This document shows positions 40,194-59,384 of a stretch of 64,000 bases of DNA, in pieces. Source of the DNA: Desulfosoma sp. GTDB lineage: Bacteria > Desulfobacterota > Syntrophobacteria > Syntrophobacterales > DSM-9756. Each line of letters opens with the position of its first letter. Within the stretch, counting starts at the first letter, position 1. Position numbers and translations under genes: made by a program. Below the pieces are notes generated by a model. It had not been told where the DNA came from. It saw nothing but the letters and a program-made list of their open reading frames with translations, and did no database searches. The stretch lies in assembly GCA_037481875.1 (NCBI GenBank), contig JBBFKY010000007.1, positions 108,236 to 172,235 on the forward strand, in the 5' to 3' direction.

Positions 40194-42071
40194 TTAGAGA
40201 TGCCGGCGAGCCCAAAGCTCGAACATGAATAAAGCCCACAGTGGCTGCGAGTGGTTTGCCAGCCCGTCACGATGGGCATTCCATAAGCGTCTCAATACCT
40301 TTTGGTTGAGAAGGTTACGAGAGCGGGCGTCCCCATCGCAAAGCGTCTCCTGCACCCGATGACGAAGCTCCGCTCGTAGCCATTCGCGCACGGGCATGGA
40401 GAACCCCATTTTTGGTCTGAAGATCACCGAAGGGGGAAGATGGTGGGCTGCGACCTTCTTTAAGATGTACTTCCCCGCTCGATTTCTCAGCTTGAAACGG
40501 GGAGGAATATGGGCCGCCAGTTCTACAAGCTTATGGTCGAGCAATGGAGCTCTCACTTCTAGAGAGTTGGCCATGCTCGCGCGATCCACTTTAGTGAGAA
40601 TATCTTCTGGAAGATAGGTTTTAAAATCAATATATTGAGCCCGCGAAACGGCATCAAGTCCACGGCATCGCTCCAGTAAGGAGCGAAAAATGTCATAAGT
40701 ATCGTAGTCCTTCAATTCTCGATGCACATCCCCGCTGATAAGTTTCTTTTTCATTTCGGGCGTCATGAAGGATACAGAACGAAAGTACCCTTCCACCGGA
40801 TCTCGTGCCACATTCCCCAAAAAGGTTTTCGCCCTCAAAGGTTGGGGAAGCCAATCGGCTTTTGGATAAATCTCTGCCAGACCTCGTAAACAATAACGAC
40901 GTATGGGATCAGGAATCACTAAACGCACCAAATCTTCCAGATACTCGAACAAATAGCGTCGATATCCCGCGAAATTCTCGTCCCCTCCGTCTCCTGATAG
41001 ACATACAGTGACAGTCTTTCGTGCCATCTGACACACATAAAAAGTCGGCACAGCCGAGGCGTCTGCAAAAGGCTCATCGAAATGCCAGGCCAACTTTTCA
41101 GTCACGTGGGAAATGTTCGGGGAAACAACGTATTCATGGTGCTGGGTGTGATAGAGCTGAGCCACCTCTCTCGCGTATTCCAATTCGTCGTAGCTTCGAA
41201 CAGAAAAACCGATGCTGTTTGTAATAACCGATGACCTCGAACATTTCGTCATCAATGCCACAATCAGGCTCGAATCGATTCCTCCACTCAAAAAAGCCCC
41301 CAAAGGAACTTCGCTGACAAGACGTAATCGCACCGATTCCAATAAATTTTCATAGAGAAGCTTTGACCACTCCTTTTCTGACAGATTCTCTTCTGGAGAA
41401 AATTCCAGGTCCCAATACTCTCGAACCACTACGCCCTTAAGGGAACACATGAGATAATGGGCGGCGGGAAGTTTATTGACCGCTTGGAAAATAGTCTTAG
41501 GGGCAGGCACGTAGCCAAGAGAAAGGTAGTCAGAAAATGCATGTAGGTCGATGTCTTTTTGGAAATGAGGCAAAACCATCAGAGCCTTGATTTCCGAGGC
41601 GAATGCAAAGGTGGACCCCATCACGGCATAGTATAAAGGCTTTTTACCGAGTCGATCTCGAGCGAGAAAAAGTGTGCGCTCTCGAGCATCCCATATGGCA
41701 AACGCAAACATGCCGCGGAGTTTTTCAAGGCAGGCTTCTCCCCACTCTTCAAAAGCATGAAGAATGACCTCTGTATCCGTAAGCGTTTTGAAAACATGAC
41801 CTCTCGCGGCAAGATGGGGGCGCAGCTCTTTAAAGTTGTAAACCTCCCCGTTGAAAACGATCACTTTGCTGCCATCTTCATTGGCAATCGGTTGTCGGCC
41901 GGTGTGTAAGTCGATGATGCTCAACCGCCGATGGGCAAGACCTAGAGGACCCTCCAGATAATACCCTTCTTCGTCCGGTCCACGATGCACGAGCGTCTCG
42001 TTCATCGCCACAAGAAGCTCACGCTTGATCGGTGCGCCATCGATGTCAAAAAGCCCGCAAATTCCACACAT
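40194..42071 (-). CDS. asnB: Glutamine-hydrolysing asparagine synthetase-like amidotransferase (XrtA type)
   Basis: 625 residues. The glutaminase domain starts M-C-G-I-C-G-L-F with the nucleophile Cys2 exposed after Met removal; I therefore chose 42071, where AAAGGT lies upstream, over the upstream start at 42086. The C-terminal ATP-pyrophosphatase domain has S-G-G-I-D-S-S. Members in exosortase A loci (TIGR03108-type) are thought to amidate sugars or the product rather than make free asparagine. It lies directly between a Cys-less paralogue and a GT4 gene in one operon. Confidence 0.92.
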   Translation of the reverse strand: MCGICGLFDIDGAPIKRELLVAMNETLVHRGPDEEGYYLEGPLGLAHRRLSIIDLHTGRQPIANEDGSKVIVFNGEVYNFKELRPHLAARGHVFKTLTDTEVILHAFEEWGEACLEKLRGMFAFAIWDARERTLFLARDRLGKKPLYYAVMGSTFAFASEIKALMVLPHFQKDIDLHAFSDYLSLGYVPAPKTIFQAVNKLPAAHYLMCSLKGVVVREYWDLEFSPEENLSEKEWSKLLYENLLESVRLRLVSEVPLGAFLSGGIDSSLIVALMTKCSRSSVITNSIGFSVRSYDELEYAREVAQLYHTQHHEYVVSPNISHVTEKLAWHFDEPFADASAVPTFYVCQMARKTVTVCLSGDGGDENFAGYRRYLFEYLEDLVRLVIPDPIRRYCLRGLAEIYPKADWLPQPLRAKTFLGNVARDPVEGYFRSVSFMTPEMKKKLISGDVHRELKDYDTYDIFRSLLERCRGLDAVSRAQYIDFKTYLPEDILTKVDRASMANSLEVRAPLLDHKLVELAAHIPPRFKLRNRAGKYILKKVAAHHLPPSVIFRPKMGFSMPVREWLRAELRHRVQETLCDGDARSRNLLNQKVLRRLWNAHRDGLANHSQPLWALFMFELWARRHL

Positions 42072-42129
42072 ACAAATACCTTTCACCGGCGGAACCGCAT
42101 GTCACTTTGGTTTGAGCCATGCACGCCTG

Positions 42130-44007
42130 TCACTCATCTACGAATTGACGGTGCCACAGTTCAAGGGTGAGCAAAGAGATCATCGTTGCTTCCGAACCGC
42201 TGGCATAGTCCGTTTGTCCCGCCAGGAAAGCCTCAACCATCTTATGGACAAAACCAGGATTGAAATACCCCCGTTGCAGAGTTCGCCGATCGAGTAATAC
42301 GTCCCTTACATAGGAAGAAAGGCGATGCATTAACCATTCCCCGATGGGCATGGCAAAACCTTGCTTAGGCTTGATCAATGTCCTTTCGGGAAGCAAAGAT
42401 CCGAATGCACGGCGCATAATCACTTTTCTTTCATTGCCATTGATTTTCAGTTCCTCTGGAAGAGCGGCGACGAACTCAACAAGGTCGCGATCATGGAAGG
42501 GGCTGACAGCATTGAGGCCATTAGCCGTGCACATTCGATCCACCTTGACCATGAGATCAAACGGTGCATACGAAAACATGTCAAAGTATAGAATCTTGTT
42601 CAGAAGGCTTTCCTCACGGACTTCGGCAAACAGAGTCCTCGCGTGTTCCAACGGGTCGAATCTTTTTTCCATCTCCAGCATGTCTTTGCTATACAAGGCC
42701 CTCTTGAGAAGAGGAGGCACCGGCATTGAGAGCAGCACTCTCTGTTCTTCCAGCGGGAAGCATTCCCGATATAGACGCCGTTTAATGCGATCAGCAAAAC
42801 GACGTCCCTCTGTCTTTAAGGGAAGCTTCCTCGCCAGTGACTGAGCCACTTTGCCACGAAACAAACGTTTGTAGGCTCCCTCCTGGGCGGCACGGCGAAG
42901 CGCGAAAACCTGATGCCCTGAACCTCCAATCAACTGGTCCGGAAAATCCCCGGTTAACACAGTCGAAACGTGCTGCCGGGCCAACTGTGCAGCAAAAAAA
43001 GATGGAACGGCGGATGTGTCTGCAAAAGGGGATTCATGATGCAAGACAATCCTTTCAAGAAGCGCAGGAAAATCCTTGTTGAAGTCCACCTGCACGGTAT
43101 GCATTGACAACTGAAGGTGCTCTGCCACAAGGCGAGCATCTTCAGTTTCGTCGTAGGCTTTCTCTTTAAATCCTGCCGTAAAGACCGGGAACGACGACCC
43201 AACACAATCCTTCATGATCGCCGTCAAAACGCTGGTGTCCAAACCACCACTTAAGAAGGCACCCGCGTGCGGATGTTTTTTCAGTCGTCTCATCACGGCA
43301 CGCCGGGTCAGATCGCTGAAAAGTTTCACCGTCTCTTGATTGTTAACCATCCGCTGGTGAGGTTGAGCATACGTAAACCTCCAGTAGCGTCGCTCCTCTA
43401 CCCGCTGGTCTTTGACGATAAGAACCCGCCCTGGAAGGAGTTGTCGAATCTCTAAAAAACAAGTCTCAGGCGCTGGGAGGTATCCATAGGAGAGAAATAA
43501 GTCCACTCCCTGCAGACTGACATCCCTTGCGCACACTTTGGTTTCTAATATAGATCGAATATTCGTCGAAAAGAGAAATACTCTTTTTTTCGCACAATAA
43601 TACAACGGCCTGGTCCCAAGACGATCTTTGAAAATAAAAAGAGTTTGACTTTGGTGATCAAAAATGACCAGAATGAAAGATCCATCCAATCTGTGGATAA
43701 AGTTTACACCCTCTTTTTCGTACAGATCGGAAATATGACACAGATCATCATTCTGGCTGGATGCGGAGGTGTCAACTCCAGAGATTGAATAAACATGGCC
43801 AAAGAGGATATACGTCGCCTTATGGGTCTGCAATGTGGTGCAGGCCAAATCCTTGAATCGTTGCACGCACCCCATGTGCAGCCCCGCCTGAAAAGACAAG
43901 CATTTGTGATTTTCAAGGCCCCTTTCATCGCCCCCCAACATCTTTCGAAAGATATCCGCCGAGGCCTCTGGCTGCCCATAGACCCAAGCACCGGTCATCA
44001 TAGACAT
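42130..44007 (-). CDS. Asparagine-synthetase-like protein lacking the glutaminase cysteine
   Basis: 625 residues, co-linear with the paralogue next door. The N-terminus is MSMMTGAWVYGQ with no cysteine at position 2, and the glutaminase half is degenerate, though structural phrases remain (DGSFILVIFDHQSQTLFIFKDRLGTRPLYY). The synthetase half is intact: S-G-G-L-D-T-S, SPFADTSAVPSFFAA, KPKQGFAMPIGEW. It should therefore activate a carboxylate with ATP but cannot hydrolyse glutamine; it could use free ammonia or an amine, or act with the intact neighbour. GAAGGGA lies before the ATG. Confidence 0.85.
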   Translation of the reverse strand: MSMMTGAWVYGQPEASADIFRKMLGGDERGLENHKCLSFQAGLHMGCVQRFKDLACTTLQTHKATYILFGHVYSISGVDTSASSQNDDLCHISDLYEKEGVNFIHRLDGSFILVIFDHQSQTLFIFKDRLGTRPLYYCAKKRVFLFSTNIRSILETKVCARDVSLQGVDLFLSYGYLPAPETCFLEIRQLLPGRVLIVKDQRVEERRYWRFTYAQPHQRMVNNQETVKLFSDLTRRAVMRRLKKHPHAGAFLSGGLDTSVLTAIMKDCVGSSFPVFTAGFKEKAYDETEDARLVAEHLQLSMHTVQVDFNKDFPALLERIVLHHESPFADTSAVPSFFAAQLARQHVSTVLTGDFPDQLIGGSGHQVFALRRAAQEGAYKRLFRGKVAQSLARKLPLKTEGRRFADRIKRRLYRECFPLEEQRVLLSMPVPPLLKRALYSKDMLEMEKRFDPLEHARTLFAEVREESLLNKILYFDMFSYAPFDLMVKVDRMCTANGLNAVSPFHDRDLVEFVAALPEELKINGNERKVIMRRAFGSLLPERTLIKPKQGFAMPIGEWLMHRLSSYVRDVLLDRRTLQRGYFNPGFVHKMVEAFLAGQTDYASGSEATMISLLTLELWHRQFVDE

Positions 44008-44973: not shown

Positions 44974-46260
44974 TTACCGTCCGATACTGTCACGGCCTTC
45001 TTCTTTTCCGTAAAGTTTCCATGCGTTTTCAAAGCATATTGGCAAAGCCAGAAGAATCCATAACATTTCAGTGTAAAGATTGCTATGGGTCATCATATAT
45101 CCTAATAAGTAGATAATAAATGTTGCTTCCAAAGGAATAGCCCAAAAGAGAATATCCTCCCCTTTTGTGTCCCATTTTTTAACGAGTCGAATGATTCGTT
45201 GCGTTTGGAACACTGCCTTGGTGATGATAACGAGAAACAGACCGATTCCCAAAACACCCAGTTCACTATAGCACAGAACGTAGCTATTATGAGCGTCTCT
45301 TCCTGCATGTTGCGGATCGTAGATCCCGATCATATGCTGAAAATTTTTCACTCCAACCCCTAGCGGGTGATCTTTGAAGATGAGAACAGAGGCCCTCCAG
45401 AATGCGAGACGACCGACTCGTCCCGCATCTTCCTGGGATTGAATGGTTTGCATCCTTTCCCAAAATTGCTTGTGGGCCAAACTGAAGAAAAGCACGGTTC
45501 CCAATAAAACGGCGACAATGATCCGAATTCTGGACCAACCAACCGTTCTGTACACTACCGCCGGCACCGCCAACACCATTCCCAGAAAAATACTCCTCGA
45601 CTGTGTAAGAATGAGACCATTCAGCAGTATAGCCAGACCTATCGCGGCAAGCCCTTTCGCCCACCACGGCATTTTCAGGAACCGAAATCCCAGGTGGCAG
45701 ATACAGAGCGCAAGAAAGGCCGCAAATCCGTTGGCCTCGTTGAAATCAACACCTCCGAAATTGTCCAACCTGCCGTCAAACATCGCTCCATAAAAGCGGC
45801 TTTGCCAGGCCAGTAAGATACCGCAGGCAATAAGGGTTGCCAGAACGATTCGATAGTTTCTCAGCGTGTTCACAACCCGAAGGAGAAAGAAAACAAAAAT
45901 AAATACCTTAGTCATCTTTTCCAAATATTGACGCGCCTCATCGTGGACTCCAACGCCGAAAACGAATGAAACGAACCAACAGAGAGCTAAAAAGAGGTAC
46001 AATTCAAACTCTCTTAAGGAAATTTTCCATTGAAGCTTATGAGGATGCGAAAACGTCGCGGCAGCCACAACAACGGCGGCGATCAGAGAGGGCCGAGGTA
46101 GAAACTGGCCGATACGAAGCGCCCACCAGACATCAGGGTTATAAAGTGTGTAAACAATGAGATACCCCGCAATACTCCAAATGGGATCTTTCACCAGACC
46201 CATCACCAAAAGGCTAAAAATAACAGCCATAATGAATAAGGGGGTTAGTCCAATCTCCAT
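44974..46260 (-). CDS. O-antigen ligase/polymerase-type membrane protein (XrtA-associated)
   Basis: 428 residues with about ten to twelve membrane helices, the topology of Wzy/WaaL and of the O-ligase proteins found with exosortase A. The large periplasmic loop with the Wzy_C signature sits at ~270-330 (FKDHPLGVGVKNFQ, then DAHNSYVLCYSELG), and NEANGFAAFLAL lies in a middle helix. It would polymerise lipid-linked units or transfer the glycan to an acceptor. No strong Shine-Dalgarno is visible before the ATG. A 251-bp gap with no recognisable feature separates it from the upstream sulfotransferase gene. Confidence 0.85.
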   Translation of the reverse strand: MEIGLTPLFIMAVIFSLLVMGLVKDPIWSIAGYLIVYTLYNPDVWWALRIGQFLPRPSLIAAVVVAAATFSHPHKLQWKISLREFELYLFLALCWFVSFVFGVGVHDEARQYLEKMTKVFIFVFFLLRVVNTLRNYRIVLATLIACGILLAWQSRFYGAMFDGRLDNFGGVDFNEANGFAAFLALCICHLGFRFLKMPWWAKGLAAIGLAILLNGLILTQSRSIFLGMVLAVPAVVYRTVGWSRIRIIVAVLLGTVLFFSLAHKQFWERMQTIQSQEDAGRVGRLAFWRASVLIFKDHPLGVGVKNFQHMIGIYDPQHAGRDAHNSYVLCYSELGVLGIGLFLVIITKAVFQTQRIIRLVKKWDTKGEDILFWAIPLEATFIIYLLGYMMTHSNLYTEMLWILLALPICFENAWKLYGKEEGRDSIGR

Positions 46261-47322: not shown

Positions 47323-48804
47323 TCAACTTTCTCTTGTATTTTGACGCCCTAAGACCTTCGCCCACAAAAATCCCCTGAAAATTCCTTGAACATCTTTCAT
47401 GAATTCCCGGTCGAAAATCAGAAAAAAAAGGACATAAACACAACCACCAAACAAGACGAGGAAACTTGAGCCGGATAAGCTATTTCGAAGGATTGGAACA
47501 ACATTTTGGAAGGTGAGAACAGCCAATGCCATGCCGAGAGATCCAACAATCGAGATTGAAGCAGTCTTGAAAAATTCCAGTAGACTTGATTGGATCAGGT
47601 TCAAAGATCCCCGCAGGAAGAAGACAAATACCAGTGGGTAAATTGTAACCCACACAGCCGCAACCCCCACAAGACCGAATCTCACGGCGACCAAAAATCC
47701 TCCTGTCAGCGCCACTGCGGCCACCAAGGAGAAGGCTAGATTCCTGTTCGGTTTTCCCACGGCATTGTTAAGTGATACTAGGTTCCCAACAAGTGCTTCC
47801 GGGATGGAAGCAAAACACATGATTTGGAAAATGGGAACAACCGCCAACCATCTCTCCCCGAGAATCATTCGAAAAGCCTCGTGTGCCATGACGGCAGCTC
47901 CAAGAAAAATAGGCAAAGCTAAAAATAAAATATAGCGGCTGATTTTTAGAAAGTAATCTTTCAAGCGCAACAAGTCGTTTTGTAGCTCCGCATACACCGG
48001 AAAAGAAACCTGGTTCAGTAAAACGATACCTCGATCAATAGGGATCCTCGAAAACTCGAGAGCCACCCTGTAGTATCCAAGCAATTCGGCACCCAGGAAT
48101 TTGCCAATAATGATGTTGTCACACTTCGTTGCCGCATACCGGAAGAATCGAAAACCCGTAACCGAAAGTGAAAAGGTGAGAATGGACCGCAGTGCCGACA
48201 GCCTAAACATAAGCTTGGGGCGCCATGGAAAGTACCCATAAAGAAAAACACAGAAAAAGAAATTAAAAAAAACGAATCGCAAAGCCAGAGCCAAAACACC
48301 TAAACCTTTAAGTGCAAGCACAAGAGTAATGATTGTGCTAGGAATCGCCGCCCACATGGTTGCTTTCGCCCTTTTTGAGAAGTCCAACTTTTTTGTCAGC
48401 AACCAAAAGGGAACGCCTGAAACTCCTTGAAAAACCAATCCTAACATCATGATTCTCACCAAAAACGTCAGCTGCTCACTCTGATAAAAGGCTGCAACCG
48501 CTTTCGCCAAAAACCACGAGATCGCATACCAGAATGTGATTCCTCCTAACATGAACCAAAAACACGAATGGGTTTCTTCCTCCGTAAGATCCGCTTTTTG
48601 AAGAATCGCAAAGCCAATATTGAAGTCATAAAAAATTTCAATAATGCTTACATAGGACATTCCCATAGCCACCAAGCCGAAATCCTGCGGAGAGAGAATC
48701 CGTACAAGAAGGAGGGAAACCGCCCATGTGATGATCAGGCTCACCAACCTGCTTGAGCCAAACCACATGATACTATTAATAGCTCTATGTTTTAAGGACT
48801 CCAT
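47323..48804 (-). CDS. Polysaccharide flippase (Wzx/WzxC type)
   Basis: 493 residues with about 12-14 membrane helices, opening with KHRAINSIMWFGSSRLVSLIITW and LLVRILSPQDFGLVAMG, which is the hallmark of the MOP-superfamily polysaccharide transporter group containing WzxC. It should move lipid-linked repeat units across the inner membrane for the polymerase encoded downstream. CAGGAAG precedes the ATG. Its cytoplasmic tail is short and basic. Confidence 0.9.
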   Translation of the reverse strand: MESLKHRAINSIMWFGSSRLVSLIITWAVSLLLVRILSPQDFGLVAMGMSYVSIIEIFYDFNIGFAILQKADLTEEETHSCFWFMLGGITFWYAISWFLAKAVAAFYQSEQLTFLVRIMMLGLVFQGVSGVPFWLLTKKLDFSKRAKATMWAAIPSTIITLVLALKGLGVLALALRFVFFNFFFCVFLYGYFPWRPKLMFRLSALRSILTFSLSVTGFRFFRYAATKCDNIIIGKFLGAELLGYYRVALEFSRIPIDRGIVLLNQVSFPVYAELQNDLLRLKDYFLKISRYILFLALPIFLGAAVMAHEAFRMILGERWLAVVPIFQIMCFASIPEALVGNLVSLNNAVGKPNRNLAFSLVAAVALTGGFLVAVRFGLVGVAAVWVTIYPLVFVFFLRGSLNLIQSSLLEFFKTASISIVGSLGMALAVLTFQNVVPILRNSLSGSSFLVLFGGCVYVLFFLIFDREFMKDVQGIFRGFLWAKVLGRQNTRES

Positions 48805-48848
48805 CCAACTTCCTGATTGGGCTCATTCCATATAGATCCCCACATGGA

Positions 48849-49358
48849 TCAGCGCGGCCGTATTTCGTGCGACGGGTCTTGGTATGAACCACCCCCAAAC
48901 CTAATTATCTTTCCCGTCGGGTCCTTTTGCCGAAGCTCCCCTTTATGATAAAAAGTGAACCCAACCTCTTTCATTGCCTCAAAACCATTTTTAATAACGA
49001 CAATGTTCCTATGGCCTCTTTCCATGAGTTTGATCGCGGCATTCACACTGAAGCCTTCAATCTCCCCTCACTCACAATAAAGTCCCAGCAGCTTGTCTTT
49101 TGGCAGGGAGACATGTCCTTTGTCAATTCGATCAGCACTTACATATAAAGCTCCAGGAATGGAAGCGTGCTTTTTACTCGCTCCTGGATGAACGTCGATA
49201 AGAATGATTTTCCCTTGCTGGAAAAGAGCATAAGCCTGCTGCGCCGTGATATGGGGAACTCGGCGTTTCTTGTTCTCGTTGGTTTCCCGCGCCAAAGCAG
49301 GTGAGCAAACCGCAAATATAAGAACCAGAATGACAAGCAAGCGCATCCTACTGTTCAT
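48849..49358 (-). CDS. Secreted rhodanese-domain protein with in-frame TGA; probable selenoprotein
   Basis: 169 codons if the TGA at 49068-49070 is read as selenocysteine (residue 97). A signal peptide (MNSRMRLLVILVLIFAVCSPALA) precedes one rhodanese domain: ITAQQAYALFQQGKIILIDV, ASIPGALYVS, LPKDKLLGLYCE, then the TGA, then GEIEGFSVNAAIKLMERG and NIVVIKNGFEAMKEVGF. The two halves are in the same frame, so only a single codon interrupts the domain. The TGA falls two residues after the active-site cysteine, where many rhodaneses of this type carry a second cysteine (C-x-C). A SECIS-like hairpin follows. Without recoding, the product would be a 96-residue fragment. GGAGGG lies before the ATG. 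It sits between the flippase and an acetyltransferase, 4 bp from the latter. Confidence 0.78.
49038..49055 (-). promoter_or_regulatory. Candidate bacterial SECIS hairpin
   Basis: RNA GGCUUCAGUGUGAAUGCC beginning 12 bases after the TGA. Stem pairs GGC with GCC and UUCA with UGAA, one bulged U, and apical loop G-U-G. Counting U of the UGA as 1, the loop G and U are positions 23 and 24, the same as in the E. coli fdhF SECIS. In fdhF the bulged U is on the 5' side; here it is on the 3' side. Confidence 0.6.
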
Positions 49359-49362
49359 TGTT

Positions 49363-50076
49363 TCATCCCTCCGGTTTGTTAAAAAACTCGATTAAATCGG
49401 CCAAATAAATCTTTTTGCGACGGCTCTGGTCGTGAAGGGACATTTTCTTTTGGATCAAATCCACACAAATCTGTTTATTCCACAATTTAATAAAAGCTAG
49501 GTTCCCTATCACCTTACCTCCCAGTCGTTTGTGGGCCTCAGTCGAGCGCCGATTGACCACCGCGATTCGGCTGAAGACCCACTGGACGTTTCGATCCGCC
49601 AGCCGGCGTAGCACCTGTTCCCAAAGAATAGCAAAGACCATTGTAAGCCGATGCTTGGGTAAAACCACGACGTCGAAATCCCACACGGAATTCGAAGGGA
49701 GGTGAATGTCACAGAACACAACATCCTCAATATAGAGATCGTAGGCCAGCCAGAGCTTTGCAACGGGCAGTCCGTCCCTTTTCAAAATAAAAGTCATGGT
49801 CTTTTGAGAGAAACGATATTGAATGGTCGTAAAGGGCGTCTCGAACACCAAGAGATCCGGCGCCGGTTCATGAAGGATTTCCAGCTGGAATCCATGTCTT
49901 AAGGCCTGAGGTATCTTAAGTCGTTCGACGGCCGAGACCGGCAGAACAAACAAGTGAAAATATTCCACGCCGCACTGAGAAGATATATATTTCAGAAGTC
50001 GGTCTAACCCATACAGGACGTATGGGATAAAACCATAATCATGGATACTTTGTTTAATTGTCTTTAAGAGGGACAT
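49363..50076 (-). CDS. GNAT-like acyltransferase in the exopolysaccharide locus
   Basis: 237 residues. The C-terminal half (WVFSRIAVVNRRSTEAHKRLGGKVIGNLAFIKLW) has the look of a GNAT fold, and an alpha/beta N-terminal half contains paired aromatic strands (TIQYRFSQKTMTFIL). I cannot assign an exact family. It may acylate a sugar amine, possibly with acyl groups supplied by the carrier-protein module that follows. AAAGGG abuts the ATG without the usual spacing, so the start is uncertain. It lies 4 bp before the rhodanese gene and 27 bp after the decarboxylase. Confidence 0.65.
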   Translation of the reverse strand: MSLLKTIKQSIHDYGFIPYVLYGLDRLLKYISSQCGVEYFHLFVLPVSAVERLKIPQALRHGFQLEILHEPAPDLLVFETPFTTIQYRFSQKTMTFILKRDGLPVAKLWLAYDLYIEDVVFCDIHLPSNSVWDFDVVVLPKHRLTMVFAILWEQVLRRLADRNVQWVFSRIAVVNRRSTEAHKRLGGKVIGNLAFIKLWNKQICVDLIQKKMSLHDQSRRKKIYLADLIEFFNKPEG

Positions 50077-50103
50077 CCCTTTATAGCATCATGGAATGAG
50101 GTC

Positions 50104-51354
50104 TCAATTTTCTATGACAACTTCGGCCGGCAGCGGGTGACTTAGAAATTGAAGGGGACTAGCTGTATAGCCGTAGGCACCGGAACAAAGTATGCCGATA
50201 AGGTCACCTTCATACAACGGCGGGAGGCTTATATTGGAACCTAGAACATCCAACGGTGTGCAAAGCGGACCGACAACGTCGACCTTTTCCCGTTGTTGTA
50301 GATCTGCAGCTTTGGGTGTCACGATAGGAAAATTTTTTCGAAGGATTTGTCCGAAATTTCCAGAAGCCGCCAAATGGTGGTTCATGCCCCCGTCGACGAC
50401 GAGGAAAGTCTTGCCCCTGGAGACCTTCCGGTAAAGCACGCGAACGAGATAGATCCCGCTTTCGCCCACCAGGTAGCGGCCGAGTTCGAAGATAAACTGA
50501 GCCGCTGGAAACCGATGCCGGTACGCTTTTATAATTTCACTCACTCGGTTGCCCAATAACTCTAAATCGAGCTCCCGATCTCCATCGTAATAGGGAATTC
50601 CGAACCCACCACCCAGATTCAACCATTTCACCATTTCGGGTGCGTGTTGTGAAAACCTGGCTAACAAAGCCAGAGATCTTTCAATTGTTTCGGCTAGAAC
50701 GTGGGGTTGCAGATTTTGGGAGCCCGCGTAGATATGAAAACCTTGGAAATCCAAAGGCAGCCCCTTGATTTTCTCCAAAACCTTGGGAATCAGTTCTGCA
50801 TCAATCCCGAAAGGTTTTGGGCCTCCACCCATTTTCATACCCGAACCATGGAGTTCAAAGTCCGGATTGACTCGTATAGAAACTCGAGGACGCGGACGGT
50901 CGTGTGATGACAGTTCGGCCAATATTTCCAGTTCCCTTAACGATTCCACATTGATGGAACCGATCCCGAGTTCCACGGCATGAAGCAGTTCATCGCGGCG
51001 TTTTCCCGGTCCGGCGAAGCTGATCTCTCCCGGATTCGCCCCCGCTTGAATGACGGCCTTTAGTTCGCCGCAGGAAGCCACGTCAAAGCCGTCCACCATG
51101 GGCACCATAGCCTTTAAGAGGGCAGGATTGGGATTGGCCTTCACTGCATAGAAAAGCTTCACATCGCTGGGAAAGGCACTGCGGAAACGACTGATTTTCT
51201 TTCGAACCACCTGAAAGTCATAGACATAGAGCGGTGTCCCGTATTCGGTGGCCCATGATTCCAGAGGCCGTCCGCCGATAAGTATTCGGCCGTCCCTTAC
51301 GTCAAAATAATTCAGAATACTCTCGACAGTGGATGATACGTTTTCTTGCTTCAT
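50104..51354 (-). CDS. PLP-dependent decarboxylase, XrtA-associated (TIGR03099 type)
   Basis: 416 residues, fold type III like diaminopimelate and ornithine decarboxylases. The PLP lysine is K72 in LFYAVKANPNP, the glycine loop is LNLGGGFGIPYYDGD and the C-terminal substrate cysteine segment is ILCSGAYGYTAS. It matches the decarboxylase that accompanies an acyl-CoA ligase and carrier protein in exosortase A loci. Probable role: decarboxylate an amino acid to give an amine used to decorate the polysaccharide (inference). It is 24 bp after the ligase gene, in the same operon. Confidence 0.9.
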   Translation of the reverse strand: MKQENVSSTVESILNYFDVRDGRILIGGRPLESWATEYGTPLYVYDFQVVRKKISRFRSAFPSDVKLFYAVKANPNPALLKAMVPMVDGFDVASCGELKAVIQAGANPGEISFAGPGKRRDELLHAVELGIGSINVESLRELEILAELSSHDRPRPRVSIRVNPDFELHGSGMKMGGGPKPFGIDAELIPKVLEKIKGLPLDFQGFHIYAGSQNLQPHVLAETIERSLALLARFSQHAPEMVKWLNLGGGFGIPYYDGDRELDLELLGNRVSEIIKAYRHRFPAAQFIFELGRYLVGESGIYLVRVLYRKVSRGKTFLVVDGGMNHHLAASGNFGQILRKNFPIVTPKAADLQQREKVDVVGPLCTPLDVLGSNISLPPLYEGDLIGILCSGAYGYTASPLQFLSHPLPAEVVIEN

Positions 51355-51378: not shown

Positions 51379-52965
51379 TCAGGATTTGGTGGATTCTTCA
51401 GCCCGAAGACGCGCCACATCGATCTTTCCTGTCGGGGTTCGCGGCAGTTCCCGTCTTATTTCCACGTAACGCGGCAACATGAAAACAGGCAGCTTTTCGG
51501 CGCAATAGGCTCGAACCTCTTCTTCGCTGAGGGATTCCCCGTCCTGAGGCACCACGAACACCTTGACGCTTTGTCCACGAATAGGGTCGGGAACCCCGAT
51601 GGCTGCAGCCAGTTTCACCCGTCCTCCTTCATAAAGCACGTCTTCAATCTCGGACGGACTGATACGATGCCCATGACACTTGATCATGTGGTCGTCTCGT
51701 CCCACAAAATAGAGATAACCTTCGTCATCTTTTTTCACCAAGTCCCCGGAATAGACGACTCGTTCCATCTGCGCGAGTCCCTCCGGCAGAAAAGGATGGG
51801 GGCGAAACACCTTTTCGGTCTTCTCACGATCCCCCCAATAGCCAAGAGACACGGTAGGGCCTCGATGCACCAATTCACCCACTTCGCCTGGGGCGCACAG
51901 GCGGCCGTCCTTGCTCACCACCAGGATCTCACATCCTGGAATTGCTTTTCCGATGGAAGTCGGCCGAGCATCGATTTCTTCAGGAGGCAGATATGTGGAA
52001 CGAAACGCTTCGGTGAGCCCGTACATCAGAAAAATTTCCGTTCCTGGAAAGACGTGTCGAAGTTGATCAATGGCGCTTGGCGGCAGAAAGCCGCCAGAAT
52101 TGGTGATATAGCGAAGATGCGGGAACTTTTTCTTGAAAACCGGCGATCCTCGCTGAAGAAGAAGAAGCCAAATGGTGGGAATACCCGCAAATCCGGTTAT
52201 TTGCTCTTGGATCAGCACATCCACCAATTCGCCAGGAAATCGAAAAGAGGTCATAACGTACGTCATCCCCAAAAGGGCACTGCAGGTCACCTGGTTCAAG
52301 CCGTAGTCGAAACTAAGTGGAAGCACTCCCAAGAGCCTGTCATCCGGGCGATTTCTTAAGTAGGATGTGACGATACGGGCCCCGGCCAGAAGGTTGTCAT
52401 GGGATACCATCACACCCTTGGGACGGCCCGTGGATCCGGAAGTGTAAAGCAGCGCGGCAAGATCTAAACCGATGCAGCGGTCGGGCGACGGGACGGCTTT
52501 TCCGGACTCTGCTAAAACGGCATCCCAGGAAACGCACTTTATGGGAAGATTCTTGACCCACAGAGGAATTTCTCCCACCACGATGATCTGCTTCAGAAAC
52601 GGCCAAGCCCCCAAAGAATTCCTTAACATTTCTAGGCGGTTTGAGTCGATGATCAGGGCGAAGGGCTCACAGTCTTTGGCAATGTGCTCAGCTTGTGGTG
52701 CCAGCAATAGAGAATTGATGGGTACGAAAACGCACCCTGCCTTGACAATGCTCCAAAAAGACAGAACCTGATCCAAACTGTGATCGAGGAAAACCGCCAC
52801 ACGGTCGCCTCGCTGTGCCCCAGAGTGCACGAGGGTCCAGGCTAAAGCGTCACTGTTCCTCTCGAGATCTCTATAGCACATGCTGATATTGTGCTGCTTA
52901 AGCGCCGTCTTCTCAGGAAACTGAGCGGCAGTTCGCCGCAGGCAATGGTGAATCAAATATTCCAT
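51379..52965 (-). CDS. Acyl-CoA ligase (AMP-forming), XrtA-associated (TIGR03098 type)
   Basis: 528 residues of the ANL adenylating superfamily. Visible core motifs: A3 LLYTSGSTGRPKGVMVSHDN, A5 region MYGLTEAFRSTYLPP, A7 YSGDLVKKDDEGYLYFVGRDDHMIK and A10 lysine in PRTPTGKIDV. It activates a carboxylic acid as adenylate and can load it on CoA or directly on the carrier protein encoded just upstream. AAGGGGA precedes the ATG. Ligase, carrier protein and decarboxylase are contiguous and look like one biosynthetic module. Confidence 0.92.
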   Translation of the reverse strand: MEYLIHHCLRRTAAQFPEKTALKQHNISMCYRDLERNSDALAWTLVHSGAQRGDRVAVFLDHSLDQVLSFWSIVKAGCVFVPINSLLLAPQAEHIAKDCEPFALIIDSNRLEMLRNSLGAWPFLKQIIVVGEIPLWVKNLPIKCVSWDAVLAESGKAVPSPDRCIGLDLAALLYTSGSTGRPKGVMVSHDNLLAGARIVTSYLRNRPDDRLLGVLPLSFDYGLNQVTCSALLGMTYVMTSFRFPGELVDVLIQEQITGFAGIPTIWLLLLQRGSPVFKKKFPHLRYITNSGGFLPPSAIDQLRHVFPGTEIFLMYGLTEAFRSTYLPPEEIDARPTSIGKAIPGCEILVVSKDGRLCAPGEVGELVHRGPTVSLGYWGDREKTEKVFRPHPFLPEGLAQMERVVYSGDLVKKDDEGYLYFVGRDDHMIKCHGHRISPSEIEDVLYEGGRVKLAAAIGVPDPIRGQSVKVFVVPQDGESLSEEEVRAYCAEKLPVFMLPRYVEIRRELPRTPTGKIDVARLRAEESTKS

Positions 52966-52990: not shown

Positions 52991-53245
52991 TCAATGACCG
53001 TTTCGTTTTCGTTCCACCAGCCGGCAAATGGCTTTCACAGAATCAAAGTTTTCAGGAACCAAGTCCTCTTCGGTAATCTCGATGCCATAGGTCTCCGCAA
53101 GATGGGTGACCAATTCCAGCACGCCCAGCGAATCGACGATTCCAGTCCGAAGCAGCGAGTCCTCTTCGGTGATCTTCTTGTGGCGGGCTTGAGGAAACTG
53201 CCGCACAATAAAATCCAAAAGATTTTGCATCAACACCTCTTTCAT
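52991..53245 (-). CDS. Acyl carrier protein
   Basis: 84 residues, a four-helix carrier fold. The phosphopantetheine site is S39 in GIVDSLGVLELV. I chose the start at 53245 with GGAGAAGCG upstream over the longer frame from 53272. It would hold the acyl or aminoacyl group activated by the adjacent ligase as a thioester. It differs from fatty-acid AcpP (no D-S-L-D-T). A GNAT enzyme is encoded next to it and is a candidate acceptor enzyme. Confidence 0.9.
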   Translation of the reverse strand: MKEVLMQNLLDFIVRQFPQARHKKITEEDSLLRTGIVDSLGVLELVTHLAETYGIEITEEDLVPENFDSVKAICRLVERKRNGH

Positions 53246-53305
53246 CGCTTCTCCTCTCTTCCACTTGGTCATGGTACCACACCGTTAAACGGTGCGCTCC
53301 TTTCG

Positions 53306-55412: not shown

Positions 55413-56573
55413 TTAGGCACGTACATGGTGAAAGTCGCTTAAAACGGCACGAGGATTCTCCACCCAGGTGTAACGCGCAAAGACTTTAGACCTCGCCGCT
55501 TCCCCCAACCTTCGCCCTAATTCTCGGTCCTTCAAGACACGGAGAAGCTCTTTGCGAAACGCTTCTTGATTTTTGGGTGGAAACAGCAGCCCATCACGGC
55601 CGTGCTCCAGTACGGCCCGAATGGGACCGTCATCAACGGCCACGATGGGCTTGCCCATGGCCATGGATTCAAAAAGCTTCATGGGCGAGCCATGCGCATT
55701 GGAATCTGGAATCACAACAATGTCGGCAAGAAACAGGTAATGTGGAACTATCTCAGACGTGACAAAACCCGTGAAGGTGATGTGTTGCATTAGACCTTGA
55801 GCCTTTGCCTTCGATTCGATCTCCGAACGGGCCGGACCGTCACCGACCAGCAGCAGGTGGAGGTCTTCCGTTTTCAGCAAATCAGAAATGCTGTCCAAGA
55901 GAAAACCAAGTCCATACCAATGAACGAAGGCACCCGTCGTGCAGATTACTTTCTCATGATTTATGCCAAGAGCTTTTCTCGAAAAGACGCAGTTCCTGAT
56001 TTTGAAACGTTCAGGATCAATGGCGTTCGGTGTGACTCGAATCTTTGATGCCGGGATTGAATGAACTTCCATCAACAACCTTTTAAAATGATCGGAAACA
56101 GTATAAATCATGGCGGCTCGAGGCACTATTCATCGTTCGATTTTATTTGCTAAGGCTTTGTTTACCAAGGGTCGTGAACGCCTAGCGACCGTAGCGTCAT
56201 TGACTTCCAAAAACAACGGGATACCATAAATGCGTGACACAAGTGATCCAGCGAAGGAAAACAATGCGTCTCTCTCATAGATCAGGTGGGGTGCAGACTT
56301 TTTCAGTCTGAGACCCAGTCTTAACAAAACATAAATGTTATAAGCTAATTCTAAGATTTCGAAGAAAGCCTGGGGACCTCGTTCCGCAATTAAAGCGAGA
56401 GTCTTTGATCTCGGAGCTGAAGCATGCTGCCCTTGTTGGGTGTCGAGATGGACACCAGGCGGGTCTAACACATCAACATCACAGCCGAGCCTAGGCATAC
56501 CTGAAACCATGCCTCGAATGTGTTTTCTCTCCGCCCAGCGACCTTGAGTCCGGTGATGATAGAAAATCTTCAT
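55413..56573 (-). pseudogene. GT4 glycosyltransferase interrupted by an in-frame TGA
   Basis: Two open pieces in the same frame: residues 1-147 (MKIFYHHRTQGRWAERKHIRGM, ending A-N-K-I-E-R) and the rest (PRAAMIYTVSDHFKRLL, SPMKLFESMAMGKPIVAVDDG). They are separated only by TGA at 56127-56129, about 385 codons in all. In GT4 enzymes this position is commonly tryptophan (E-R-W-I), and TGG to TGA is a single-base change, so a nonsense mutation or a sequence error is likely. No hairpin with a G-U loop follows at SECIS distance. GGGAG precedes the ATG. If real, the enzyme is inactive. Confidence 0.82.
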
Positions 56574-58064: not shown

Positions 58065-58345
58065 CGTCAAGTTATGAAGTTGTGAAGTTGTGGAATCGTA
58101 TAAAGGGCAAGTGGTGAAGTCGTGCATCGTAAATGGGAATAAAGAGAAATCGTGAAATTGTAAGCTGAGTCGCAGGCTTGCCGGCTAAGGGAAGGCGTAA
58201 GGTCGTCATCATGGACCTTTACTCTCGATTCTTTTGGACTCAAGCTAAAGTTCCCGGTCTCCTGTGCCATACTCCCTTAAAGGGCCTTGCCCTCCCCCTT
58301 CACCCGTTACAAGTTCATATTCTACGATTCCACGATTTCACGCCA
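58057..58345. repeat. CGTGAAGT-family array between femAB and TIGR03087 genes
   Basis: On the plus strand, units run from about 58062 to 58162 (ATCGTCAAG, TTGTGAAG, TTGTGGAATCG, GGTGAAGTCGTGC, AATCGTGAAATTG). A reverse pair lies at 58322-58343 (CTACGATTCCACGATTTCAC). On the minus strand, the FemAB stop TGA is inside the first GCGTGA. No gene lies between. Confidence 0.75.
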
Positions 58346-59384
58346 AAAACCGAGCAATAGGCGGACCGGCGAGCCGCGTAAGCCAATGGGGAAGCCGCCG
58401 CCATAACTCGATCTTTCGCTGGTACTTTGGGTTGGCGGGACTCAGATCGGGAATGTCCTCGATACGGCTGAGCACATATTGGTACGCGAGAGGTTTGGGT
58501 TCAAAGCCCCAGTGGATTTTGAATGCATAGGAACCGGTGTCGATTTTGCTGCGACCGAAATCGAACCAACGGTATCCATGACTGCACGACCAGCGCATGA
58601 GGTCAAAGTACATGAAGTCGTTGGGAGCCAAGTGCCTGTACTCGGCAAGGGATCCGGCATAGTAAGGCATAACCACGTCCTTGTAAAAGAAGCTCAAAAC
58701 CCCTGCGATAGGCAGACCTTCAGGGGTGTAAATAATTCGAATTTCGCAAGAGTCTTTAAAAGTATCCACAAGTTTTTGAAAGTAGCGATAGGAAAAGATG
58801 GGCGTGCCGAGGCGGTGAAAGTTGGTCGCCAAAAGGCTGTAGAAGGTGGGGAGAAGATCCCTTCCGGTGCGCGATACCAGCCCCGCCTTGATACCCACTC
58901 GAACCATCCTTCGCGATTTTCGAGGAATTGCCTGAAGATTTTTTTCTGGGTCAGAATGCATTTGCTTTCGAAAGGTCACGTAGCGATGTTTTGTCGGGAG
59001 GTTCCCGAAAGGTTTTTCATGACGCAGCTCTAAATAATCCAGCCCTTGCAATCGTACCATACGGGCGGCTTCGAAGATCAACCGCTCGGCCACTTCCGGA
59101 GTTTCCGCCAAGGCACCACCTTTTTCTGCAAAAGGAACGGAGCTCATGTAGTTTCCAAAGAGGGGGCTTCGAATGGAAAACAGCGGAAGCACCCCCACAA
59201 TACGCCGCGGCCTTGCGGATCCTTTGGATTCTTCCGCGACAAGATAGTGGTCCCTATGTCCAAAGGATTCCGAGACCACTCTTTTCCATGCGGTCAGATG
59301 AAACAGGGTGCCGTCTGGATGGTTGAGAACAAAGAGGTCCCAAGCAACAGCATCTGAAGGTTGGTAAGGACGAATGAGAATCAT
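58338..59384 (-). CDS. FemAB-type transferase, XrtA-associated (TIGR03019 type)
   Basis: 348 residues with tandem GNAT-like lobes: residues 1-150 (IRPYQPSDAVAWDLFVLNHPDGTLFHLTAWKRVV) and the second lobe containing the FEMABX-like phrase SLAEYRHLAPNDFMYFDLMRWSCSHGYRWFDFGRSK. This is the FemAB-like protein that accompanies exosortase A. FemAB relatives transfer amino acids from aminoacyl-tRNA; here it may aminoacylate a sugar of the exopolysaccharide. The stop codon lies in a repeat (GCGTGA). A gene-free 472-bp gap precedes it. Confidence 0.88.
   Translation of the reverse strand: MILIRPYQPSDAVAWDLFVLNHPDGTLFHLTAWKRVVSESFGHRDHYLVAEESKGSARPRRIVGVLPLFSIRSPLFGNYMSSVPFAEKGGALAETPEVAERLIFEAARMVRLQGLDYLELRHEKPFGNLPTKHRYVTFRKQMHSDPEKNLQAIPRKSRRMVRVGIKAGLVSRTGRDLLPTFYSLLATNFHRLGTPIFSYRYFQKLVDTFKDSCEIRIIYTPEGLPIAGVLSFFYKDVVMPYYAGSLAEYRHLAPNDFMYFDLMRWSCSHGYRWFDFGRSKIDTGSYAFKIHWGFEPKPLAYQYVLSRIEDIPDLSPANPKYQRKIELWRRLPHWLTRLAGPPIARFLA

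Follow-up and report, generated by a model that had tools for sequence, protein, structure and literature searches.

Relationship to catalogued rhodanese selenoproteins

Selenocysteine (Sec)-containing rhodaneses with a CxU active site have already been catalogued under several names: 'rhodanese form 3' (PMC13188914), 'COG0607 form 2' (PMC9312934) and the NCBIfam family NF041203, 'rhodanese_LYCAU'. Rhodanese-related sulfurtransferase selenoproteins were also described in the Sargasso Sea set (PMC1088965): like the protein reported here, these are rhodanese selenoproteins with a bacterial SECIS, but they were placed in COG2897, a different rhodanese subfamily, and are set apart by that description. 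The gene that we consider lies in a 64-kb stretch of Desulfosoma DNA (hereafter the window, meaning the whole stretch analysed). By sequence, its product is a divergent representative of the catalogued CxU rhodanese selenoproteins, and it adds a divergent member to this predicted family.

With the NF041203 family the window protein has in common a single rhodanese domain, a Y-C-x-U active site, a SECIS directly after the UGA and export, which is likewise predicted for many members of that family. NF041203 is its best NCBIfam match, at 49.3 bits, which is below the curated cut-off of 115; other divergent CxU members likewise fall under this cut-off. The two differ in several respects. The active-site loop of the window protein is CEUGEIEGFS, as against C-x-U-P-x-E-x-T-S-A in NF041203, and is hence devoid of the usual U-P-x-E-x-T-S-A context. 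The window protein further possesses one extra loop residue and a C-terminal beta extension, and its gene is found in the context of a polysaccharide cluster.

In a phylogenetic tree the branch leading to the window gene is long (1.55), and the sister of this gene, with support of 97/89, is its nearest relative, L023/L081, from a distant metagenome-assembled genome (G001 contig C2; WFRX01000002.1). Like the window protein, L023/L081 is a CxU protein with a TGA, has a KAMRKAGF-type C-terminus and is encoded in a polysaccharide cluster. However, the two are only 33% identical, their gene neighbours are different, and the SECIS of L023/L081 is at the family-standard position. A scan with L023/L081 as the query matched only L023/L081 itself, and searches of the genome and viral contig collections found no relative close enough for dN/dS.

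The gene and its predicted product

Read from 49358 to 48849, the minus strand gives a single frame comprising a signal peptide, a complete rhodanese domain and a short C-terminal extension (Table 1), and the coordinates that an initial annotation of this DNA had given for the gene are correct. The sole interruption of the frame is the TGA at codon 97, two residues past Cys95, in the context ...LGLYCE-U-GEIEGFSVNAAIKLMERGHRNIVVIKNGFEAMKEVGF... The N-terminus, MNSRMRLLVILVLIFAVCSPALA, is signal-peptide-like as judged by eye. The initial annotation had described one rhodanese domain split by a single in-frame TGA, and Pfam indeed recovers a single PF00581 domain running across the TGA in the same frame (residues 38-130, E 2.8e-7, 31.3 bits, above the gathering cut-off of 22.2). 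AlphaFold models the entire rhodanese fold (mean pLDDT 85.7), and the top PDB matches of the model in Foldseek are rhodaneses. In this model C95 and residue 97 are situated in the active-site loop (residues 95-101), between strand 91-94 and helix 102-113. The loop contains acidic residues and lacks the loop-closing basic residue of the CxxGxR type, which would be expected in a thiosulfate:cyanide sulfurtransferase.

Table 1. Features of the rhodanese locus in the window
Feature	Coordinates	Strand	Details
XrtA/PEP-CTERM system amidotransferase	40194..42086	-	TIGR03108 813.3 bits, just below cut-off 816.9
Wzy / O-antigen-ligase-like protein of cluster	44974..46260	-	PF04932 E 2e-19
Wzx-type flippase, next downstream gene	47323..48804	-	PF13440 E 7e-70
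Exported CxU rhodanese, predicted selenoprotein CDS	48849..49358	-	169 aa; start ATG 49358; stop TGA 48849-48851; predicted Sec at residue 97
SECIS-like hairpin GGCUUCA-GUG-UGAAUGCC	49038..49055	-	7 bp, one bulge; loop G23 U24 G25; 19 nt UGA-to-loop
In-frame TGA, codon 97, predicted to be read as selenocysteine (C95-E96-U97)	49068..49070	-	aligned column is TGA/Cys
Next upstream gene	49363..50076	-	237 aa; no Pfam/NCBIfam match
PLP-dependent decarboxylase, exosortase A system-associated	50104..51354	-	TIGR03099 521 bits, cut-off 478
Acyl-CoA ligase, exosortase A system-associated	51379..52965	-	TIGR03098 599 bits, cut-off 592
Acyl carrier protein of cluster	52991..53272	-	PF00550
FemAB family XrtA/PEP-CTERM-associated protein	58338..59384	-	TIGR03019 404.5 bits, cut-off 260

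Conservation of the Sec/Cys column and the hairpin

Relatives were sought in 297 genomes of the phylum, and then translated and aligned. Many of them possess exactly one TGA within the match, aligned to the same column as codon 97, and in all of them the half of the protein after the TGA is conserved in the same frame. Counting the rows that score above 76 bits to the family profile, with identical contexts removed, column 97 of the CxU family is occupied by TGA in 32 rows (the window gene included), by Cys in three (L042, L072 and L078) and by other residues in none. Residue 97, the state of which in homologues the initial annotation had proposed as a check, is thus Sec or Cys across the family and never Trp. 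Row L025, which also passes 76 bits (at 78 bits), is gapped at column 97 and carries a different motif, YCKSGG; an additional row with a TGA (L114) scores only 43.8 bits, and the rhodaneses scoring lower on the family profile represent other motif classes. On this alignment, the coincidence of the TGA with the Cys/Sec column is not a matter of chance. Three relatives (L024, L080 and L079) display a TGA also two codons before the Sec column (Y-U-x-U), so that Sec may also take the place of the rhodanese nucleophile in them.

A SECIS-like hairpin, GGCUUCAGUGUGAAUGCC, begins 12 nt past the UGA and is present as a single copy within the window. Numbering from the U of the UGA, folding yields a 3-nt loop, GUG, whose first two bases are the G-U that the initial annotation had placed at positions 23-24; the energy is -10.5 kcal/mol for 36 nt. 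These values lie within all the limits of the published bSECIS model: a loop of 3-9 nt, a stem of 4-16 bp, a G at loop position 1 or 2, a spacing of 16-37 nt and an MFE of -7.5 or below (PMC13188914 Fig. 2). The 31 other Sec genes have a hairpin in common, with pairs 20-24/30-34 formed in 90-100% of the rows and a loop of 3-5 bases. Of these genes, 15 have UA at pair 21:33 and 14 have CG, a true compensatory exchange; position 26 in the loop is G in all 31, and the pairing is destroyed by a slide of 1-3 nt. This family stem is not kept in any of the three Cys genes. Compared with the family hairpin, that of the window gene is about three bases closer to the UGA, and there is one extra codon in the loop region. 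As for the background, a SECIS-like hairpin occurs at 4.8% of the in-frame coding positions of the window and an equally stable one at 2.7%; because of the latter figure, the hairpin taken alone is modest to weak evidence. A search of positions 48000-50200 against Rfam returned no match.

Decoding of UGA-97

The genome possesses all four genes of the Sec pathway that the initial annotation had suggested looking for: selA (540 bits in the genome search), selB (416 bits), a tRNA-Sec with the anticodon UCA, i.e., selC, and selD, which has an in-frame TGA of its own at GAGUASK, the usual catalytic Sec site of SelD. TGA ends 25 of the 48 ORFs in the window, including those of the flippase, the decarboxylase and the ligase; a genome-wide reassignment of TGA was rejected, as the codon is an ordinary stop in these genes. 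Given the Sec/Cys column, the SECIS-like hairpin, the open frame and the full selABCD set, UGA-97 is very probably decoded as selenocysteine, with the apparently broken gene specifying a whole exported rhodanese. This would be ordinary bacterial Sec decoding, in which SelB with Sec-tRNA-Sec would bind the hairpin starting 12 nt after the UGA.

A second potential decoding apparatus has to be considered, since a further tRNA (C2:315649-315738, L003) is recognized by the tRNA-Sec model at 54.4 bits, above the cut-off, but has the anticodon GCA. Inspected by eye, this tRNA-Cys(GCA) combines an acceptor stem of 8 bp with a T stem of 4 bp that includes a bulged A, and its position 73 is U. Another full-length SelB (307.6 bits; C2:316899-318791, L015) is encoded 1.2 kb downstream of it, and the two constitute a selC*/selB* system in a genome whose Sec system is itself complete. 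Such an arrangement of a selC* tRNA-Cys and selB* has been reported in Syntrophobacterales and Desulfobacterales (PMC7609411). Because the genome has this tRNA and this second selB, Cys could replace Sec at UGA-97, and it is possible that residue 97 would be Cys under some conditions. In work by Vargas-Rodriguez from 2018, a Desulfotomaculum tRNA of the selC* type reportedly inserted Cys at UGA in E. coli. UGA-97 might then be read wholly or partly as Cys via tRNA-Cys(GCA) and the SelB paralogue, resulting in C-x-C or a selenium-dependent mixture, a reading compatible with the incorporation of Sec. We consider it unlikely: the complete Sec pathway is present as well, the family retains TGA over a Cys codon, as expected with Sec as the preferred product, and nothing ties the second SelB to the window hairpin. 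As the genome has both Sec and selC*-type Cys decoding, the window gene lends itself to asking which residue enters at UGA. Between the tRNA-Cys and selB* we also noticed by eye an open frame for a MvhD/FlpD-like (hydrogenase-associated) protein (CFCCQWCSYAAAD; L015, about 400-860).

Selenocysteine decoding must also be weighed against a pseudogene or a base error, whereby a Cys codon became TGA and the hairpin is there by chance. The long branch of the window gene and the occurrence of SECIS-like hairpins at about 3-5% of coding positions would be in keeping with this, as would a glycosyltransferase gene 7 kb off: its in-frame TGA stands at a variable position and has no SECIS-like hairpin after it, an indication that the cluster is not free of nonsense changes or base errors. 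The TGA of the rhodanese, however, coincides precisely with the Sec column of a family rich in Sec, is followed by a hairpin with the right distance and loop, and leaves the remaining frame intact. A TGA is likewise found there in the nearest relative, which is from another genome, and since other assemblies have TGA at the same column its presence can be accounted for without a base error. Hence, we regard decay or error as very improbable. It is scarcely credible that the TGA is a true stop releasing a 96-residue exported fragment, as the mechanically listed ORF ending at codon 97 would have it, for translation would then break off within the active-site loop, and all relatives conserve the downstream half in frame.

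Predicted active-site chemistry

If Sec is inserted as we propose, the active-site loop of the exported protein would hold a Cys95-x-Sec97 pair: Cys95, as the rhodanese nucleophile, would take up sulfane sulfur or an oxidised thiol, with Sec97 serving as the resolving residue via a selenenyl-sulfide. The protein might thus act as a thiol/persulfide redox enzyme and not as a cyanide-type sulfurtransferase; the acidic loop speaks against thiosulfate:cyanide transfer of the classical type. We judge such thiol/persulfide redox chemistry of Cys95/Sec97 to have a little under an even chance of being correct, whereas the 'peroxidase-like enzyme' put forward in the initial annotation is speculation.

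The XrtA polysaccharide cluster

The rhodanese gene starts 4 nt after the upstream gene and ends 44 nt before that of the flippase, one of the two neighbours named in the initial annotation and here recovered downstream; the other had been called an acyltransferase, a designation that finds no backing in Pfam or NCBIfam. The surroundings of the gene are an XrtA/PEP-CTERM (exosortase-A) polysaccharide cluster: the markers TIGR03098, TIGR03099 and TIGR03019 are all above their cut-offs, and sulfotransferases and deacetylases are also present. The setting had been termed unusual, which holds in so far as it is a cluster of this kind, and the closest relative, L023/L081, is in a related one: it is flanked by a polysaccharide deacetylase on one side and a Wzy protein on the other, with a flippase and a glycosyltransferase nearby. 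Thus, a surface-polysaccharide setting of the family recurs in two distant genomes, and these two cases constitute a lead and not a rule. None of 19 other rhodanese loci, CxU ones included, has a polysaccharide cluster of the window type around it, so the polysaccharide link comes from those two genomes. Our literature search found no paper describing a link of the CxU rhodanese family to surface-polysaccharide clusters.

Among the 31 genomes searched, TIGR03099 is above its cut-off only in that of Desulfosoma; the XrtA/exosortase cluster of the window was not found in the 30 relatives, and the Sec rhodanese is absent from the two other genomes of the genus. On account of this distribution of TIGR03099 and of the Sec rhodanese, the cluster and the rhodanese were probably acquired together by horizontal transfer, or else lost elsewhere.

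Given that its gene is located within an XrtA polysaccharide cluster, the rhodanese could serve the assembly or export of the surface polymer of the cluster; this role, for which the motif and the neighbourhood are the basis, is put forward tentatively. A more elaborate proposal, which we deem improbable, is that the exported CxU rhodaneses include a distinct branch linked to polysaccharides, providing a Cys-Sec pair for the assembly of exosortase-type surface polymers, whose UGA would be decoded by the tRNA-Sec/SelB and tRNA-Cys/SelB* pairs to give Sec or Cys, depending on the selenium supply.

Two further features of the cluster deserve mention. The glycosyltransferase noted above, a family 4 enzyme (55413-56573, minus strand) of the same cluster, is split by a TGA at codon 148 (56130-56132). 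This TGA was rejected as a second Sec codon, as the residues of homologues at this position are unrelated and a SECIS-like hairpin is missing downstream. It has the appearance of a nonsense change or base error, perhaps with a restart at the GTG directly after it. Two asparagine-synthase-like amidotransferases, at 42130-44007 and 40194-42086 on the minus strand, adjoin each other, and the former is divergent (TIGR03108 295 versus 813 bits).
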